Shown: positions 5,661-19,807 of the stretch, one piece after another | Position numbering within the stretch: position 1 is the first letter of the stretch | How the letters are laid out: each line of letters starts with the position of its first letter | Assembly: GCF_001441165.1 (NCBI RefSeq) | Contig: NZ_CP013126.1 | Coordinates: forward strand, 2,199,551-2,263,550 | DNA length: 64,000 nt | Source: Acidipropionibacterium acidipropionici | Lineage (GTDB): Bacteria > Actinomycetota > Actinomycetes > Propionibacteriales > Propionibacteriaceae | Reading direction: 5' to 3' | Notes under the pieces: model-generated | Told to the model about the DNA's origin: nothing | Seen by the model: the letters and a program-made list of their open reading frames with translations, nothing else | Database searches by the model: none | Position numbers and translations under genes: made by a program

Positions 5661-6960
5661 CGAGCCCGGATCCCCGGACCCGGCGTCCGAGGAATCCCCG
5701 GCGCCTCTCGACGAGACCATCATCGAGGAGATCTCCACCGATGAGCCGGTGACCAGCCATGAGGCGGCCGCGGTCCAGGAGGAGAAGGCCCGGCGCGGAT
5801 TCCCGTGGAACGACGTCTGGGTGACGGTGGCCGCCTTCGTGCTGGCCTTCATCGTCTCCGCGATCGTCATGGTCGCCGCCGACCCCGACATCTCGAAGGA
5901 GTGGAGCTACCTGTTCTCCCGTCCCGATGCGCTGCGGGACTCCTGGGCGAAGGTGTCGGAGGCCTATGTGGCGCTGTTCCAGGGGGCCTTCGGATCGTGG
6001 GGCGCGATCACCGGCACGACCGCCCAGGCGGCCCCGCTGATCTGCGGCGGCCTGGCCATCGGACTGGGCTTCAAGGCGGGACTGTTCAACATCGGCGGCC
6101 AGGGTCAGGCCATCGCCGGGGCGACGATGGCGGCCTGGGTCGGATTCAACTTCCATTCTCTGCCGCTGGTGCCGCATCTGGTGCTGGCGATGCTCGCCGG
6201 TCTGCTCGGCGGAGCGGTGTGGGGAGGCATCGCCGGCGTCCTCAAGGCCCGGGCCGGCGCCAATGAGGTGATCGTCACGATCATGCTCAATTACGTCGCC
6301 TCCGGCCTGCTGGCCTGGCTGCTCACCACCAAGGCATTCCAGATGCCCGGCCGCACCGATCCGATCGCCCCGGTGGTCGACTGGAACGCGACCTTCCCGC
6401 GGCTGGCCGGCTCGCAGCTTCATCTGGGATTCTTCATCGCCCTGCTGCTGGCGGTGGGCACCTGGTGGCTGCTCGACCGCACCCGGCTGGGCTTCCAGAT
6501 CAAGGCCGTGGGCGCCAACCCGCGCGCCTCGGCCACCGCCGGCATGAACGTCGCCACGATCACGGCGGTCACGATGATCATCTCGGGCGCCCTGGCCGGA
6601 TTTGCCGGCGTCGAGGTGGCCCTGGGGCCGATCTCGGGGGCCACCCCGACCCAGCTGTCCATCGGCCTGGTCGGTTCGATCGGATTCGACGCGATCACCG
6701 TCGCCCTGCTGGGCCGCTCGCGGCCCTTCGGGACCGTCCTCGCCGGCCTGTTCTGGGGCGCCATGAGCCAGGGCGGACTGAGAATGCAGGCCCTGGCGCA
6801 GACCTCGTTGGACCTGGTGAGCGTGATCCAGGCCGTCATCGTGATGTTCGTGGCCGCCCCGATGCTGGTCAAGACCGTGCTCCCCTTCCTCAAGACGGCG
6901 CGGGAGAAGCGGCGCAGGACCGCGGCGGGCTCCGACTCGAAGAAGGGAGCGCTGGCATGA
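5647..6960 (+). CDS. Nucleoside ABC transporter permease 1
   Basis: A 437-residue membrane permease of the BPD_transp_2 family. A charged, Glu/Asp-rich cytoplasmic N-terminus of about 55 residues precedes roughly ten hydrophobic segments. The stretch 'GLGFKAGLFNIGGQGQ' is the typical substrate-path motif of these permeases, and 'GANPRASATAGMNV' is the coupling loop that contacts the ATPase. ATG 5647 follows AAGGAGGGTG and overlaps the ATPase gene. The end overlaps the next permease by ATGA. It should form a heterodimer with permease 2. Confidence 0.9.
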   Translation: MSSTDEPGSPDPASEESPAPLDETIIEEISTDEPVTSHEAAAVQEEKARRGFPWNDVWVTVAAFVLAFIVSAIVMVAADPDISKEWSYLFSRPDALRDSWAKVSEAYVALFQGAFGSWGAITGTTAQAAPLICGGLAIGLGFKAGLFNIGGQGQAIAGATMAAWVGFNFHSLPLVPHLVLAMLAGLLGGAVWGGIAGVLKARAGANEVIVTIMLNYVASGLLAWLLTTKAFQMPGRTDPIAPVVDWNATFPRLAGSQLHLGFFIALLLAVGTWWLLDRTRLGFQIKAVGANPRASATAGMNVATITAVTMIISGALAGFAGVEVALGPISGATPTQLSIGLVGSIGFDAITVALLGRSRPFGTVLAGLFWGAMSQGGLRMQALAQTSLDLVSVIQAVIVMFVAAPMLVKTVLPFLKTAREKRRRTAAGSDSKKGALA

Positions 6961-9800: not shown

Positions 9801-11591
9801 ATGTGTGCCAACATTCTCGCCGCTGTCGCGTGGCCCTATGCGAATGGGCCCCGGCATATCGGCCATGTGTCCGGATTCGGTGTCCCCTCCGATGTGTTCG
9901 CCCGGTTCATGCGAATGTCGGGTCACAACGTGCTCATGGTCTCCGGATCCGACTGCCACGGCACCGCCATCTCGGTGAAGGCCGACCAGGAAGGGTTGAC
10001 CGCCCAGGAGTGCGCCGAGAAGTACCACCGGATCATCGCAGAGGATCTGCAGGGGTTGGGCCTGTCCTACGACCTCTACACCCACACCATGACCGACAAC
10101 CACGCCCAGGTGGTCCAGGAGGTCTTCCGCACCCTGTACCGCAACGGTTACCTGGTGAAGAAGGCCGAGATGGGGGCCTTCGAGCCCGCGACCGGGCGCA
10201 CCCTGCCCGACCGCTACATCGAGGGCACCTGCCCGCACTGCGGCTATGACGACGCCCGCGGCGACCAGTGCGACAACTGCGGTCGACAGCTCGATCCGGC
10301 GGACCTCATCTCCCCGCGGTCGAAGACCACCGGCGCCACCCCGGAGTTCCGACAGACCGAGCACTTCTTCCTCGACCTTCCGGAGCTAGCCGAGGCCCTC
10401 ACCGAGTGGATCGACACCCGCCACGACTGGCGTCCCAACGTCCTGAAGTTCTCCCACAATCTGCTGGAGGAGCTGCGGCCCCGCGCCATCACCCGCGACC
10501 TGGACTGGGGCATCCCGGTGCCCGTGGAGGGCTGGGAGTCCGATCACATGAAGAGCATCTACGTGTGGTTCGATGCCGTGATCGGTTACCTGTCGGCCTC
10601 CATCGAATGGGCCCGGCGCTCCGGGAACCCCGACGCGTGGAAGGCCTTCTGGACCGGTGGGAACGAGAAGTCCTACTACTTCATGGGCAAGGACAACATC
10701 GTCTTCCACTCGGTCATCTGGCCCGGCATCCTGCTGGGGGTCAACGGCGAGGGAGCCAGGGACGGGCAGCCCTCCGAGCAGCTCGGCACCCTCGACCTGC
10801 CCACCGAGGTGGTCTCCAGCGAGTTCCTCACCATGAGCGGTTCGAAGGTCTCCAACTCCCGAGGCGCCACCATCTTCGTCGGCGACTTCCTGCGCGATTT
10901 CGGCCCCGACGCGCTGCGCTACTTCATCGCCGTGGCCGGCCCGGAGAACCAGGACACCGACTTCACCTGGGACGAGTTCGTCCGCCGGGTCAACTTCGAG
11001 CTCGCCAACGAGTGGGGCAACCTGGTCAACCGGTCGATCTCGATGGCCCACAAGAACTGCGGGCAGATCCCCGCCGCCGGCGAGCTGACCGACGCCGACC
11101 GGGAGCTGCTGGAGGCCTCCCGTCGGGCCTTCGACACGGTCGGAGACCACCTCGAGCGCGCCCGGTTCAAGGCCGCGATCACCGAGGCGATGCGGATCGT
11201 CGGGCTGGCGAACGCCTACATCAGCGCCCAGGAGCCCTGGAAGCTCAAGGATGATCCGGCACGCCGCGACACCGTGCTGCATGTCGCCCTCCAGGTGGTC
11301 AGCGACTGCAACACCCTGCTCACCCCGTTCATGCCGCACGCCGCGCAGAAGGTCTTCGAGGCGATGGGCGGTCAGGGCGTGTGGGCGGCTCAGCCGCAGA
11401 TGGTGGAGGTGAGCGAGAACGATCACTCCTACCCGGTGCTGCAGGGCGACTACACCGTCGAGAGGGCGCGCTGGGCATCCGAGCCGATCGCCGTGGGCAC
11501 CCCGCTGGCCAAGCCGAGCCCGATCTTCCGCAAACTCGACGCCAAGCTGGCCGAGACCGGCCCCGAGTGGGCGCCCATCGCCCACGACTGA
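9801..11591 (+). CDS. metG: Methionyl-tRNA synthetase
   Basis: A 596-residue class I aminoacyl-tRNA synthetase charging tRNA-Met. The HIGH box is present ('[12 protein letters not shown]'), the connective-peptide zinc knot is CPHC...CDNC, and the second ATP-binding signature appears as '[10 protein letters not shown]' (KxSxS variant). The C-terminal half carries the helical anticodon-binding domain ('[15 protein letters not shown]'). It lacks the EMAP-like C-terminal dimerisation domain. ATG 9801 gives the expected MetRS N-terminus with no extension and is probably leaderless. It is a single essential gene, convergent with the kinase gene downstream. Confidence 0.95.
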
Positions 11592-12537: not shown

Positions 12538-13662
12538 TCAGAGGAGGAATCCCTGTGGATAGATGTCATCCTCGTCGAGCACGAATGTGGAGACTCCGGT
12601 GGTGTACGCCCGGCCGGTGATACGCGGAACGAACGCCTCGTACCGGCCGACGGCTGCCTGAGCGACGGCCTCGCCGGTGAACTCCGATCCCGTGATGGAT
12701 GAGAACACGCCCTTGTCGCCGAGTTCCATGTCGCCGCGCTCGAGGAAGAGCGCGAGTTTGGCGGAGGTGCCGGTGCCGCAGGGCGACCGATCGAGCTGAC
12801 GGTCGCCGAAGACCACGCCGTTGCGGTAGTGCCGTTCCTGGGGCAGAACACTTCCCAGCTCCACGAGATCGACGCCCGAGATGTCCAGGAGCGGATGAGA
12901 GACCTGGACCTGTGCGCGTGCCGCCCGGAGAACGGACATGCCGAGATCCGCGACGGCCCGGGAGTTCCGCGCCGAGATGTCGATGCCCAGTCCGTCGGCG
13001 TTGACCAGGGCGAAGAAGTTCCCACCGAAGGCGATCGTCGCCTTCACCTCGGGCAGACCCGGGTGGTCGAGTTCCAGTGTCACATTCGATTCGGCCACGA
13101 AAGCAGGAACGTTGGACACCGTCGCACCGGTGACCCTCCCGGCGCGAACATGCACCGACACGACCACGAGTCCTGCCGGAGTGTCGAGCCGCACGTCCAC
13201 GTCGTCATGGCGGATCTCGGCCAGTGAGTCGTAGTGGCCGGTCACCAGGCCGGACTCGACGGCGAAGGTGCCGACCCCGATGGAACCGTGTCCGCACATG
13301 TTCGAGAAGCCCCCGGAATGGGAGTAGACGACACCCAGGTCCGCGTCGGGTCGTGTCGGACGGAAGAGGAACGCCCCGAACATGTTGCGGTGCCCGCGCG
13401 GTTCCAGCATGAGCAGTCGTCGGACGGGGTCGAACTCGGCCTCCAGCCTGTTGCGCACCGCGATCGCGCTCGCCTCATGGAAGTCCGGCAGACCGCCGAC
13501 GACGATTCTGGTGGGTTCCCCCTGGGTGTGGGACTCCACCGTCGTCATCCTGGGCGAGTCCCCCAGCCGGGCTCTCTCGAGCAAGGACATCACGGCGGCG
13601 CTCGTCGATGCGTAGAACGACGCGGCCGATTCGGGAACGAGTGTGCGACCTGGTGCTGACAT
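12538..13662 (-). CDS. prdF: Proline racemase
   Basis: A 374-residue cofactor-independent racemase interconverting L- and D-proline. Both catalytic cysteines are present: C123 in 'NMCGHGSIG' and C295 in 'DRSPCGTGTS'. This separates it from trans-3-hydroxy-L-proline dehydratase, where the second Cys is Thr. It supplies D-proline to the reductase encoded upstream. The start at 13662 is favoured by AGGGAGA 7 nt away. An internal ATG at 13548 (MTTVESHTQGEP) would give the more usual 336 residues, so the first 38 residues may be an extension or a mis-start. It is the last gene of the prd operon, 94 bp after the TetR gene. Confidence 0.9.
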   Translation of the reverse strand: MSAPGRTLVPESAASFYASTSAAVMSLLERARLGDSPRMTTVESHTQGEPTRIVVGGLPDFHEASAIAVRNRLEAEFDPVRRLLMLEPRGHRNMFGAFLFRPTRPDADLGVVYSHSGGFSNMCGHGSIGVGTFAVESGLVTGHYDSLAEIRHDDVDVRLDTPAGLVVVSVHVRAGRVTGATVSNVPAFVAESNVTLELDHPGLPEVKATIAFGGNFFALVNADGLGIDISARNSRAVADLGMSVLRAARAQVQVSHPLLDISGVDLVELGSVLPQERHYRNGVVFGDRQLDRSPCGTGTSAKLALFLERGDMELGDKGVFSSITGSEFTGEAVAQAAVGRYEAFVPRITGRAYTTGVSTFVLDEDDIYPQGFLL

Positions 13663-13756: not shown

Positions 13757-14335
13757 CTAGTCGGATGTGACGAACTGATCGAGGACACCGGCCACGATCC
13801 GGTTCGGTTCCCCGACAAGGGGCTGTGCGCCTTGGTGAAGGCACCAGTCGTAGAGCATGGATCGTTCAGCCATCGCATACAGCCTGACGATGTCATGAGC
13901 GGAGACGTCGGAGGTGAATTCACCGGCCTCCTGGCCTCTGGCCACGAACTTGCGATGGATGGCGAAGTAGTACCGGTCGTGATTGACCAATGATCGGTCC
14001 CCACGCGGGCTCAACTGGGATGCGAGCAGCTCTCGGAGCAGATCAACAGGTACGGTGTCCTGAATGAACGTGAACATCGCAATATTCAATGATTTTATCT
14101 GATCGACGATGCTGAGGCTCTGATCGAGGCCGGTCTCCAGTTTCCGATACTTGTCGTCGAAGATGTCACTGAGTGTCCCCAGCAACTTGGACTTGCTCTG
14201 GAAGTGGTGGTAGAACGTGCCTTTCGCAATCCCCGCGCGGGCGATGATCTGATCCACCGTGGTATGCCGGAAGCCCTGGGTTCTGAACAATTCCCACGAG
14301 GCGTGGACGATATCATTCCTGGCATCTCGCGGCAT
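13757..14335 (-). CDS. TetR-family regulator in the prd operon
   Basis: A 192-residue one-component repressor/activator. Residues 8-55 form the TetR HTH ('FRTQGFRHTTVDQIIARAGI', 'GTFYHHFQSKSKLL'). The remainder is a helical ligand and dimer domain with no recognised signature. It sits between prdB and prdF on the same strand and is the obvious local regulator. In clostridia, as far as I recall, prd genes are controlled by the sigma-54 activator PrdR, so a TetR protein here would be a different solution. A palindrome at 19932-19945 ahead of the operon is a candidate target. Confidence 0.88.
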   Translation of the reverse strand: MPRDARNDIVHASWELFRTQGFRHTTVDQIIARAGIAKGTFYHHFQSKSKLLGTLSDIFDDKYRKLETGLDQSLSIVDQIKSLNIAMFTFIQDTVPVDLLRELLASQLSPRGDRSLVNHDRYYFAIHRKFVARGQEAGEFTSDVSAHDIVRLYAMAERSMLYDWCLHQGAQPLVGEPNRIVAGVLDQFVTSD

Positions 14336-14431: not shown

Positions 14432-15160
14432 TCACACGTTGTGGCGGTACTCGTAGGGCAGCATCCTCAGCATTCCGAAGTGGTCGAACTCCTCGACGGC
14501 CGTCAGGGTGTCCTTGAGAATGCCGGTCTGCATCCGGGGGTTGTTCGGCTCGCCCGCGTTCGAGCCGATCGGCACGTGCGGCGAGGTGATCCGGGGCGCA
14601 CCCTGCTGACGCGCGATCGGGGGGAGGGCGGCGATCAGGCAGGTGCTCATGCCCATCGCCTCGCAGGCGCGCAGGACGATCGTCGCCGAACGGTGGCAGG
14701 TGCCGCATCCACCGGTGGCCAGGACGATGTCGGCGCCCTCCGCCTTGAGGCGGCGGGCGATCTCGGGCCCCGTCTCGTCGCGGAACTTGTCGACGTTGCC
14801 GCCCCCGCCCATGAATCCGAAGAAGGTGTCGACCAGGCCGCCGATGTAGCCCTCGTCGCGGAGCTCGCGCAGACGGTCGATCGGCAGCATGGCGTTGACA
14901 TCCTTGTTGATGTCGGAGTTGTCGAATCCTCCATGGGTGACCATCAGCCGGTCGGACGGTGTGTCGCTCGGGATCTCCCGGAAGGTGAAGTCGCCCGCCG
15001 TGTTGAACGGCGTCTGGTCCTTTCTGTGGATGCCTCCGGAGGTGATGAACGCGATCGTGCACTCATCGACGGGTCTGGTGAGGGGAGTCCATACGGGGGA
15101 GGGCGTGATCGGAACGTAGATCTCCGACCGGAGGCCGGGTGCGGTTGTCAGTGTCGTCAT
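14432..15160 (-). CDS. prdB: D-proline reductase subunit PrdB, Cys variant
   Basis: A 242-residue catalytic subunit that receives electrons and opens the D-proline ring to 5-aminovalerate together with the pyruvoyl subunit PrdA. ATG 15160 has GGAGAAG upstream and gives the length of clostridial PrdB. In clostridia the active-site residue is selenocysteine (position 152 as I recall). Here residue 152 is cysteine in 'TGGCGTCHR', encoded by TGC at 14705-14707, and there is no in-frame TGA. The C152-G-T-C155 pair could act as a redox CxxC. This implies a selenium-independent enzyme, which would be slower if thiol simply replaces selenol. Family identity is strong; activity is inferred. Confidence 0.88.
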   Translation of the reverse strand: MTTLTTAPGLRSEIYVPITPSPVWTPLTRPVDECTIAFITSGGIHRKDQTPFNTAGDFTFREIPSDTPSDRLMVTHGGFDNSDINKDVNAMLPIDRLRELRDEGYIGGLVDTFFGFMGGGGNVDKFRDETGPEIARRLKAEGADIVLATGGCGTCHRSATIVLRACEAMGMSTCLIAALPPIARQQGAPRITSPHVPIGSNAGEPNNPRMQTGILKDTLTAVEEFDHFGMLRMLPYEYRHNV

Positions 15161-15280: not shown

Positions 15281-15469
15281 CTAGAGGACGTTGACGTAGC
15301 TGAGGTAGAACTCGCATTCCTGTCCCAGTTCGAGCGGTTTGTCGGTGAGGATGCACCGCAGAGGGAGGGACAGCACCCCCATCCTTCCGTTGACACCGAT
15401 GCGCACGCCGACCTCGGTGATCTCTTTGATGACCCCCCGCAGCAGCAGGGGTTGGAGTTCTACGTCCAT
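15281..15469 (-). CDS. Small prd-cluster protein (CBO2463/CBO2479-like)
   Basis: A 62-residue protein with alternating hydrophobic and charged strands ('GVIKEITEVGVRIGVNGRMGVLSLP', 'GQECEFYLSYVNVL'), suggesting a single small beta-barrel. A protein of this size and composition accompanies proline reductase genes in clostridia under the label CBO2463/CBO2479 domain; that match is from memory. ATG 15469 has GGAGAACA upstream. Its placement between PrdA and PrdB genes argues for a structural or maturation role in the reductase. No catalytic residues are evident. Confidence 0.65.
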   Translation of the reverse strand: MDVELQPLLLRGVIKEITEVGVRIGVNGRMGVLSLPLRCILTDKPLELGQECEFYLSYVNVL

Positions 15470-15507: not shown

Positions 15508-15858
15508 TCAGACGAGCTTCTGATTCGCCTTGATGACGTCCCCGTCCCAGGGGCGCTCGGGGGGATCGATCTCGATTCCTGACATCTTGTTCTTGAGCAT
15601 GAGGATCGCGCGCCTCGAGTCATCCTCGGTCAAGGTGTTCTCGGCGAGGATCTCGTTCTCCAGCCCACCGGGGTCCTTGTTCAGCTCGACCATGGCATCC
15701 ATGTACTGGTTGCCGACGACGAGTTGTCCCTGGTAGGCGGCGAAGGTCACGCCGACGACGGGTATGCCGCGGGATCCGATGGCGGAGATGTTCATGGAGA
15801 AGTCGATGTGGTTGTTGCCGAAACCCTCGGTCGTGACGATGGCCCCGTCGACATCCAT
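15508..15858 (-). CDS. prdA: PrdA C-terminal part, after the amber codon
   Basis: These 116 residues continue the PrdA frame directly after the TAG at 15862-15864: stop, GCG, then ATG at 15858. They contain the conserved end of PrdA ('MDVDGAIVTTEGFGNNHIDF', 'GIPVVGVTFAAYQGQLVVGN', 'LNKDPGGLENEIL'). The body is well preserved with no further stop, so either the interruption is recent or the part is still made by reinitiation at this ATG or by amber readthrough. GGGGCG lies about 15 nt upstream, a poor ribosome site by itself; termination-coupled restart is more plausible. Confidence 0.75.
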   Translation of the reverse strand: MDVDGAIVTTEGFGNNHIDFSMNISAIGSRGIPVVGVTFAAYQGQLVVGNQYMDAMVELNKDPGGLENEILAENTLTEDDSRRAILMLKNKMSGIEIDPPERPWDGDVIKANQKLV

Positions 15859-15861
15859 CGC

Positions 15862-17265
15862 CTAGACCAGCGCCCCGAGACGACTGGAGACGTAGGTCTT
15901 CTCGTCGTTGACCTGTGGTGAGCCGATGAACACGACTCCGGTCAGGTCGACCTCATCATCGGTCTGCAGCGCCTCGACGAGCGGCTCGCGGAAGAAGTGA
16001 CGGGTGATCTCCTTGGTGGCCGGTCCGATGCAGGCCAGGGCGTGGATACCGCCGTCGAGCACCTCATTGGGGCTGAGAACCACGGGGACATTGCCCATGT
16101 CGACGTTCTTCTCGCCGCCCTGGATGCCGCACGGCTCGGCAGGGACGAGCAGGTTGTCGTGCATGGCTCCCTGCCCCATGATCTCCTTGACGAGCACCAC
16201 GCGCGGACGGTCCGGTCGCCTGACGTCCTTGAAGGTCTCCTCGGCGACAGGGGCGAGTCCCGAGAGATCGCCGATCCGGTCCCTGATGGCGTGGATGATG
16301 ACATCGCAGGCGCTGTGGGCGGCGAACGGGCCACGGCGCTCCATGCCTGTGCCCTCCTCGATCTGCACGTCGACGCGGATCATGATGTCGCCCTCGTCGG
16401 GGCAACCGGGGCGACCGAAGCGGATCTTCTCGTCCATGAATCCCTCGCACGAGCCGAACTCGTGGATCTGGACGCCCGCCTCATCCATGCCGGTGAGCAC
16501 GAAGACGGCTCCCTGCAGCACATTGGTGACGCCCTCGCCGAGGGCCCCCTCGGCCTTCGCGGCGACCGGAATGACGTCCATGATCGTGTTGGAGTACACA
16601 TGGCGGTCCTGGGGTGCGATGACGTCGAGGGTCACCTTCTTGACCAGCGGATCGGCGGCCGTGGCGGCGTCCACCAGCGAGCCGTCGATGGTGAGCACTC
16701 TGCCGTCGTAGGAGGTGGTGGCGCCGACCACGACGCTGGTCACCGGGTAGTGCTTCTTCACCAGTGTGCGCAGGACGCGCTCCTGGGCGGGAGCCTCAGA
16801 CGCCGGTCCCGCACCGGTGGCGACGGGGGAGGAGCCCGCGGGCAGGCGGTCGCCGGGTATCGGAAGCACCAGGTCGAGGTCCTTGGCCTCCTTGACGTGC
16901 AGGCGCAGATACCCCGGTGCGGCAGCGCCCTCGGACGTCGTGGCGGGCAGGGGCGCTTCGGGGGCGGGTGCCGGGGACTCGGCCGGTGCCGTCGGCGCGC
17001 CGTCCGAGATCTCGGCGACGCCGTCGAGAAGATCGGGGGTCAGTTGGGTGAGGGCCTCACCGCCCGAGGTGAGGGTGGCTCCGAGGGCCTGGCCGATGGT
17101 CAGGCCGTTGCGGGTGAGCGTCATGAGATTCGACTCGATCATGTCGTCGAAGATCGCGGGGTCCTCGAAGTCCTGTGCACCGAGCACGGTTCCCGCCGGC
17201 CGTTGGCAGCACAGCACGGCGGGATCATTCAGGTGCGCTTCGAGCGTTGATTGTGACAGTGACAT
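15862..17265 (-). CDS. prdA: D-proline reductase pyruvoyl proprotein PrdA, truncated by in-frame TAG
   Basis: A 467-residue ORF homologous to the PrdA proprotein, which self-cleaves to give a pyruvoyl group that binds D-proline. The probable cleavage cysteine is C412 in 'IHALACIGPATKE', close to Cys421 reported for C. sticklandii (from memory). The N-terminal half has a Pro/Ala-rich insert at about 90-115. The ORF ends at amber codon TAG 15862-15864 after 'YVSSRLGALV'; the next codons in the same frame encode the missing C-terminus (15508-15858). With CAG or another sense codon there the protein would be about 584 residues, the normal length. It could be a nonsense mutation, natural split or readthrough. 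ATG 17265 is preceded by AAGGAAAAG. Confidence 0.85.
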   Translation of the reverse strand: MSLSQSTLEAHLNDPAVLCCQRPAGTVLGAQDFEDPAIFDDMIESNLMTLTRNGLTIGQALGATLTSGGEALTQLTPDLLDGVAEISDGAPTAPAESPAPAPEAPLPATTSEGAAAPGYLRLHVKEAKDLDLVLPIPGDRLPAGSSPVATGAGPASEAPAQERVLRTLVKKHYPVTSVVVGATTSYDGRVLTIDGSLVDAATAADPLVKKVTLDVIAPQDRHVYSNTIMDVIPVAAKAEGALGEGVTNVLQGAVFVLTGMDEAGVQIHEFGSCEGFMDEKIRFGRPGCPDEGDIMIRVDVQIEEGTGMERRGPFAAHSACDVIIHAIRDRIGDLSGLAPVAEETFKDVRRPDRPRVVLVKEIMGQGAMHDNLLVPAEPCGIQGGEKNVDMGNVPVVLSPNEVLDGGIHALACIGPATKEITRHFFREPLVEALQTDDEVDLTGVVFIGSPQVNDEKTYVSSRLGALV

Positions 17266-17318: not shown

Positions 17319-18554
17319 TCACCGGTCCGCGGGCCGGGGTTCCCGATGCGCTCGGATGAGTCGTTCTCCGCCGGCGCGCAGATAGGCGTCGGTGGCGTGG
17401 TGGACACGCATTCCGAGCTTCGGCGCGATCTGCATCACGGTGTTGGTGCAGTCGGTGCAGTGGCTGATGAGCAGACTCGTGGCACCCTGCTTCCTCAGCG
17501 ACAGGACCGCCTGGGCCTGTCCCGGGCAGACGCCGGGATTGGCGCATTTCAGGCGGCCGTCCGGCAGTGTGACGACGTTCTTGCAGTTCACGGTCCCGGT
17601 GAGTCGGGCGCCTTGCGCGTCCACGATCGCCGCGAGGCGGTCCCGGCTCGCCCCGCAGGCGCAGACGATGACGCCGACCGGCCCTCGATCCTGGAGTTCG
17701 GGGCCGGCGATCATGATCCCGCCGCTGGTCCCCGTGACCGGGTCGTCGAGCTGTGCCGGGTCTCCCATGTAGGGGCCGCCGAGCAGGAACTGGGCATCGG
17801 GCCGCGGGGGCGTGATGTGCAGCGCCCTGAGCACCTGACGGATCGTCGTGCCGATGGGGACGTCGTAGAGCACCAGGCTGGTGTCGCGCTCGTATCCGCT
17901 GCCGTCGATGATCCCGGCCACCGTGATGTCCTTGGTCGCGACGGGCTTGCCCTCCACGAGGATCTCGTGAATGCGCAGGAGCGTCTCCACGTTCAGCACC
18001 AGCGCGCCGGCCGAGCTGGTGTGGGCGGCCGGTCCGATCAGTGACCCGAGAACGTCTCGCACCACCGCACGCGCGTCACCCACCGGGTAGCGGTCCTCGA
18101 GGAGGGCGACGCTCAGACGTGTGCCGTCCTGCTGCGCGTCATTAAACCTTCGCACGGATGCGTCGAGCGTCTCCAGTGCGTCGGTGTTCTTCGCTTTGAT
18201 CGCCACGATGCCTCGAGAGGCACCCACGATCTGCATTGCGATCCCCAGACCGGAGAGGATGCGGTCGGAGTCGGTCTCCAGACGCGCGACGTTCTGTTCC
18301 AGAAGTGGTTCGCATTCTGCGGCGTTCGCGACCACGACGGAGTATCCCTTGTCACGCGCGAGCTTCTTCCAGGTCGGGTATCCGGCCCCGCCCATGCCCA
18401 CCAGGCCGGACTCCCTGATGCGTGACAGTGCCGATGGGGCGTCGACGGCGCAGGATGTGCCCATGCTTTCCGGAATGCTGTTCTCCGGGGCCTGTGTGCG
18501 GCCGTCCTTGCGGAATACCTCGGACGCTTCGAGGATGATCTGTTTGCGAGTCAT
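17319..18554 (-). CDS. prdC: PrdC, RnfC-like electron-transfer protein of proline reductase
   Basis: A 411-residue soluble oxidoreductase of the RnfC/NuoF-like fold, thought to pass electrons from NADH (or Rnf) to PrdB. Visible elements are the flavin/NADH-binding 'GLVGMGGAGYPTWKKL', 'VANAAECEPLL', the SLBB region around 'GTTIRQVLRAL' and a Cys-rich C-terminal half (CACGASRDR; CKNV; CANPGVCPGQ; SHCTDCTN). No in-frame TGA is needed for full length, whereas C. difficile PrdC is, as I recall, a selenoprotein. ATG 18554 follows GGGAGG. It lies between the aminotransferase and prdA genes, with 26 and 53 bp gaps. Confidence 0.85.
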   Translation of the reverse strand: MTRKQIILEASEVFRKDGRTQAPENSIPESMGTSCAVDAPSALSRIRESGLVGMGGAGYPTWKKLARDKGYSVVVANAAECEPLLEQNVARLETDSDRILSGLGIAMQIVGASRGIVAIKAKNTDALETLDASVRRFNDAQQDGTRLSVALLEDRYPVGDARAVVRDVLGSLIGPAAHTSSAGALVLNVETLLRIHEILVEGKPVATKDITVAGIIDGSGYERDTSLVLYDVPIGTTIRQVLRALHITPPRPDAQFLLGGPYMGDPAQLDDPVTGTSGGIMIAGPELQDRGPVGVIVCACGASRDRLAAIVDAQGARLTGTVNCKNVVTLPDGRLKCANPGVCPGQAQAVLSLRKQGATSLLISHCTDCTNTVMQIAPKLGMRVHHATDAYLRAGGERLIRAHREPRPADR

Positions 18555-18580: not shown

Positions 18581-19807
18581 TCAGTCGCTCGACGCGGCGA
18601 CGGAATTGACGGCGTCTGTGAGAATCGATATCGCCTGGTCCACCAGCTTCTTGGTGACGATGAGCGGTGGGATGCAGCGGATGATGGACGATCCGATGGC
18701 GGTGACGAGCAGCCCGCGGTCCAGAGCGGCGTGTTTGACGTCGGTGGCGTCGACGGATCCGTCGAACTCGAAACCCACCAGGAGGCCCCGACCGCGGGAC
18801 TCCTTGATATGCGGCAGCGAGTTGCCCCTCTCGATCAGGTAGGCGCCCACTTCCGCGGCATTTCCCGCCAGGTCCCCCTCCACGATCTCCTCAACCTCGG
18901 CGAGCGCCGCGGCCGTGCAGAGCGGCGAGCCGCCGAAAGTGCTGCCATGGGTTCCCATGGTCAGGGACTCGGCGATGGCGTCCGTGGTCACCATCGCGCC
19001 GATCGGGACGCCTCCGCCGAAGCCCTTGGCCATCGTGAAGATGTCGGGCTCGACTCCGTACCCCTGCCACGCGAAGATCGTTCCGGTGCGGCCCCAGCCC
19101 GTCTGCACCTCGTCGAGGATGAGCAGCAGGCCCTTCTCGTCGCAGAGTGCGCGAAGTCCTTCGATGAACTCCGGCGTGGCCGGATTGACCCCGCCCTCGC
19201 CCTGCACCGGCTCGATCATGATGGCCACCGTGTTCTCGGTGACTCGGGCGCTGAAGTCGTCGAGGTTGTTGAACTCGGCATAGGCGAAACCGGGGGTCAT
19301 GGCGCCGAAACCGTCCTGGGCGAGGGAGCCGGGCTGCCCGGTGGCGGCGAGCGAACCGAAGGTGCGCCCGTGGAAGGAGTTCAGAGCCGAAAGGATCTCG
19401 AACCTGTGAGGTCCGAAGTGGTCGATGCCGTACTTCCGCGCCAGCTTGATGGCGGCCTCATTGGCCTCGGTTCCCGAGTTCTGGAAGAAGATCTTGTCGA
19501 ATCCTGATATCTCGCAGGTCCTCTTCGCCAGGAGCGCCTGAGGGATCGTGTACGGGTAGTTGAAGGTGTGCATGATGTCACCCGCCTGATCGCGGATGGC
19601 TGCGACCACCTTGGGATTGCAGTTGCCGGCGTTGTTGACGGCGATCCCACCGTAGAAATCCAGATAGGCATTGCCCTGAGGATCGTAGAGGTACATGCCA
19701 TCGGCACGCTCTGCGATGAAGTCGTAGCGCTCGTAGGTCTCGATCATGTAGCGCTTGACGATGTCTTTGAGGCCCTGCTCGCTCAAACCGGTTTCGGATA
19801 GCTTCAT
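18581..19807 (-). CDS. Ornithine/acetylornithine-type aminotransferase, class III
   Basis: A 408-residue PLP enzyme of the class III (OAT/GABA-AT) family. The PLP lysine is K261 in 'FTMAKGFGGG', with D232 and Q235 in 'ILDEVQTGWGR' and the phosphate-binding 'SGTEANEAA'. As the first gene of the prd operon it most likely acts on ornithine, giving glutamate semialdehyde, which cyclises to pyrroline-5-carboxylate and is reduced to proline for PrdF/PrdAB. Acetylornithine or 4-aminobutyrate as substrate cannot be excluded from the sequence. ATG 19807 has GGGAG/AGAGG upstream. It is far from arginine-biosynthesis genes, which favours the catabolic role. Confidence 0.82.
   Translation of the reverse strand: MKLSETGLSEQGLKDIVKRYMIETYERYDFIAERADGMYLYDPQGNAYLDFYGGIAVNNAGNCNPKVVAAIRDQAGDIMHTFNYPYTIPQALLAKRTCEISGFDKIFFQNSGTEANEAAIKLARKYGIDHFGPHRFEILSALNSFHGRTFGSLAATGQPGSLAQDGFGAMTPGFAYAEFNNLDDFSARVTENTVAIMIEPVQGEGGVNPATPEFIEGLRALCDEKGLLLILDEVQTGWGRTGTIFAWQGYGVEPDIFTMAKGFGGGVPIGAMVTTDAIAESLTMGTHGSTFGGSPLCTAAALAEVEEIVEGDLAGNAAEVGAYLIERGNSLPHIKESRGRGLLVGFEFDGSVDATDVKHAALDRGLLVTAIGSSIIRCIPPLIVTKKLVDQAISILTDAVNSVAASSD

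Follow-up and report, generated by a model that had tools for sequence, protein, structure and literature searches.

The prdA gene, which encodes the D-proline reductase proprotein, is interrupted by a single in-frame TAG in a 64,000-nucleotide stretch of the Acidipropionibacterium acidipropionici contig NZ_CP013126.1 (hereafter, the window), and it is very probably a recent pseudogene with a single lesion in the assembly of this one strain. According to this explanation, a G-to-T change would have converted the conserved Glu468 codon from GAG to TAG, where termination by RF1 would leave a chain of 467 residues. Such a chain would retain Cys412 and lack the last 118 residues; since these make up most of the pyruvoyl-bearing alpha/beta domain, this strain is expected to lack proline reductase activity. 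The frame past the stop, in turn, would still look selected, considering that too little time would have elapsed for its decay.

A prdA frame interrupted at codon 468

On the minus strand, the prdA frame extends from 17265 to 15508 and comprises 467 codons, the TAG (15862-15864), a GCG and, from the ATG at 15856-15858, 116 codons closed by a TGA (15508-15510). It was confirmed, as a sequence-only reading of this DNA had proposed, that the amber codon cuts the PrdA frame past the candidate self-cleavage cysteine. When the stop was read through, the product matched positions 2-587 of the 587 positions of the PrdA profile TIGR04480 with 834 bits, and only in this way was the cut-off of 700 passed, since the two halves scored separately reached 622 bits (first) and 190 bits (second). 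Judged by this match, the PrdA homology is unbroken across the TAG and far above chance. Cys412 lies 56 codons upstream of the TAG, is invariant in an alignment of 32 PrdA sequences and has its counterpart in the pyruvoyl position of the C. difficile protein, which mass spectrometry located in the peptide aa421-427 (PMC9908766). Thus, the full-length profile match, the pyruvoyl-forming cysteine and the prd cluster context are those of a PrdA, and what departs from it is the continuity of the proprotein chain, which is broken by the TAG at codon 468. A second, intact prdA elsewhere in the genome was ruled out, since a single copy was found, in which the genome search flagged one TAG.

No solved PrdA structure was found by sequence search, and the fold comparison gave no confident match. 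In an AlphaFold model of PrdA (mean pLDDT of 78.5, and about 91-94 near codon 468), residue 468 lies where a confidently predicted helix (453-469) ends, with strand 440-447 before this helix and strand 474-479 after it. Because residue 468 closes this helix between two strands, the truncated chain is predicted to end inside the pyruvoyl-bearing domain, and the model locates the break within this alpha/beta domain rather than at the natural cleavage site.

The host is a dairy-type propionic acid bacterium, and the prd cluster is dedicated to proline fermentation. Here, the cluster is ordered as aminotransferase, prdC, prdA, CBO2463-domain gene, prdB, tetR and prdF (Table 1), and prdA is its only broken frame. 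The order from prdC to prdF is the same in Bifidobacterium clusters, while the aminotransferase is additionally common to the metagenome-assembled genome (MAG) of Acidipropionibacterium designated L017, by alignment to which the prdF start was inferred. PrdC presents a CTDC motif close to its C-terminus. The system resembles that of Clostridium sticklandii and C. difficile in the full-length TIGR04480 profile of PrdA, the pyruvoyl cysteine and the prdB/prdC/prdF/CBO2463 cluster. However, it differs from the clostridial one in the TAG at codon 468, in the absence of prdD and prdE, neither of which was seen in the prd cluster, and in PrdB, which carries cysteine instead of the selenocysteine found at position 152 in C. 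sticklandii (Sec152; PMC3091704).

Table 1. Position and supporting evidence of prdA, its parts and the neighbouring prd genes (window coordinates)
Feature	Coordinates	Strand	Evidence
prdA (D-proline reductase proprotein), one in-frame TAG	15508..17265	-	TIGR04480 834 bits, stop read through
prdA first open part, residues 1-467	15862..17265	-	reading frame, TIGR04480
In-frame TAG, codon 468	15862..15864	-	Glu (GAG/GAA) in nearly all relatives
prdA second open part, residues 470-585	15508..15858	-	TIGR04480 472-587, 190 bits
Cys412 codon (TGC), expected pyruvoyl/self-cleavage residue	16030..16032	-	invariant in 32 PrdA
ATG of Met470, proposed restart codon	15856..15858	-	ancestral coding Met, EAMEVDGA in relatives
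Acetylornithine/ornithine-type aminotransferase, first cluster gene	18581..19807	-	TIGR00707 435.8 bits; same position in L017
prdC, electron transfer protein, frame intact	17319..18554	-	TIGR04481 373.7 bits (cut-off 490); collinear with relatives
CBO2463/CBO2479-domain small protein	15281..15469	-	NF041553 85 bits; in all compared clusters
prdB, intact, Cys (TGC) at Sec152 position	14432..15160	-	TIGR04483 442.5 bits; codon check
TetR-type regulator, between prdB and prdF	13757..14335	-	profile search, cluster comparison
prdF-like proline racemase, intact	12538..13662	-	PRK13969 339 bits

Codon 468 in related genomes and constraint after the stop

Among 84 loci with a PrdA match, a stop was observed in two, both belonging to the genome under study; the 82 loci outside it had none. 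In nearly all PrdA proper, codon 468 specifies Glu (GAG or GAA), with Asp, Gly or Arg in a few clostridial and other sequences. GAG is present in the nearest relative, the L017 MAG (the L017 and G003 loci lie on the same contig and were counted as one relative), as well as in 12 of 12 Bifidobacterium loci. Bifidobacterium clusters, such as those of B. subtile and B. tibiigranuli, share with the window the order prdC-prdA-CBO2463-prdB-tetR-prdF and a PrdA identity of 71-75%, whereas their prdA is intact, with GAG where the window has TAG. On these comparisons, the TAG is private to its own genome and, as is expected of a nonsense pseudogene, L017 and Bifidobacterium are one step away from it. 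The simplest history is that a GAG to TAG change likely occurred as a single step on this lineage. The recent nonsense change put forward in the sequence-only reading is therefore supported by a private stop, a sense codon in the relatives and an undecayed tail; its suggestion of CAG as the ancestral codon was rejected, since the relatives carry Glu at this position, not Gln.

The distribution of prdA is patchy: it was found in two of the five Acidipropionibacterium genomes examined and in no further genome among the 395 sampled from the class, while several Bifidobacterium species carry it. The L017 assembly presents frameshifts at 6381-6560, in the prdA linker, and at 10320-10380, in prdF, which could represent real damage or long-read indel errors. 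As two indels were present in about 4 kb of a MAG that is 86% complete, these frameshifts were not relied on, and their interpretation as a sign of genus-wide loss was set aside.

The frame after the stop was compared with L017, yielding a Ks of 0.489, a Ka of 0.077 and an omega of 0.158, against 0.365, 0.042 and 0.115, respectively, before the stop (residues 164-467). After polarisation with outgroups, derived residues on the window branch and on the MAG branch were in the proportion of 6:5 before the stop and 6:4 after it, and the two lineages did not differ (Fisher p = 1). Pairwise replacements affected 16 of 116 residues after the stop versus 22 of 305 before it (p = 0.055), a difference common to both lineages. 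In an unconstrained tail, about 53 replacements would be expected over the whole branch, and about 5 over a tenth of it. Relaxed selection after the stop was not detected, either by omega against L017 or by the polarised counts, and the 116 codons following the TAG contained no further stop or frameshift. This lack of strong decay (omega of 0.16) is what a young nonsense pseudogene would display, and it bears out the earlier proposal that the damage, if any, is recent. Since the tail shows neither a further lesion nor detectable relaxation, the best explanation is that the TAG arose recently, a base-call error being less likely. However, a tail that is still translated would be just as constrained. 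These comparisons indicate that constraint can have been lost only during a short final stretch of the branch, which fits equally a recent stop and a still-made tail.

Termination versus proposed restart or readthrough at the amber codon

TAG functions as an ordinary stop codon in this genome. It closes eight of the 56 called ORFs in the window, including prdA itself and the adjoining CBO2463 gene, and RF1 is present and intact (TIGR00019, 416 bits, slightly below the cut-off of 423), with the PVT tripeptide and the GGQ motif, being distinct from RF2. The best match to the pyrrolysyl-tRNA synthetase (PylS) model in the genome scored 22 bits, below the cut-off of 178. The Rfam model detected 53 tRNA genes, and the anticodons assigned to them by ARAGORN do not include CUA. 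Decoding by pyrrolysine or by a suppressor was rejected on these grounds. Low-level readthrough is universal, and the full-length homology on both sides of the TAG would agree with the insertion of a residue giving some full-length PrdA; nevertheless, considering the presence of RF1, the lack of decoding machinery, the normal use of TAG as a stop and the plain Glu codon of the relatives, functional amber readthrough, another of the initial proposals, found no support and is extremely improbable.

It had also been suggested that PrdA evolved into two chains, with termination at the TAG, restart at the ATG two codons later and assembly of the fragments. The stop and the ATG are only 3 bases apart, the tail is still constrained and, in the model, the chain is broken where a helix gives way to a loop, a setting in which split proteins sometimes reassemble. 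As fragments can sometimes bridge a loop of this kind, restart is unlikely but conceivable. However, the ATG also encodes Met in uninterrupted PrdA from Bifidobacterium and the MAG (EAMEVDGA), and therefore it was not created as a start. In addition, the AGG upstream of it is only 2 bases away, too near for the usual Shine-Dalgarno spacing, and no well-spaced Shine-Dalgarno precedes it. None of the 82 PrdA loci outside this genome is split at codon 468, and the natural cut of PrdA is at the pyruvoyl cysteine, 56 residues upstream of this break within the domain (PMC9908766). Consequently, a two-chain PrdA is not supported and is decidedly unlikely. It is also highly improbable that the strain makes an active proline reductase in three pieces, in which the N-terminal chain released by self-cleavage would join a pyruvoyl peptide of 56 residues and a C-terminal chain translated after restart at ATG 15858.

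A base-call or assembly error, with prdA intact in the living strain, would account for a prdA and a cluster that otherwise look functional, and it would agree with the new CTAG being mildly unexpected where this tetranucleotide is depleted. On the other hand, the assembly consists of one contig and is 100% complete, although the window was taken from this very assembly and, hence, offers no independent evidence; moreover, substitution errors are less common than indel errors in finished genomes. An error is thus considered unlikely. In the window, CTAG was observed 17 times, versus about 53 expected from its trinucleotides.

Single-lesion genes in the species

A recent prdA pseudogene would find analogues in the genome of Propionibacterium acidipropionici ATCC 4875, in which 32 pseudogenes of the single-lesion kind were described and read by the authors as recent (PMC3534718). 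As with prdA, each of these genes is conserved but for one point change or frameshift (PMC3534718), and by this analogy the prdA lesion fits the pattern of the species. Proline is absent from the main text of that paper (PMC3534718), and no papers tying Acidipropionibacterium to proline reductase or 5-aminovalerate were found in the literature searched. If prdA is a pseudogene, the strain is probably unable to use proline as an electron acceptor, even though its prd cluster looks complete, and the proline reductase reaction should be left out of its metabolic models. It would also be a further example of genes lost recently, and at the level of the strain, in Acidipropionibacterium.

In ATCC 4875, both the large subunit of nitrite reductase and the CcO subunit I (CoxA) are frameshifted (PMC3534718). 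The nirB frameshift is common to the genome analysed here, at a G6 run (G000:C1:1291278-1293693, L140), whereas CoxA is intact in it, which indicates that the strains or their assemblies differ.
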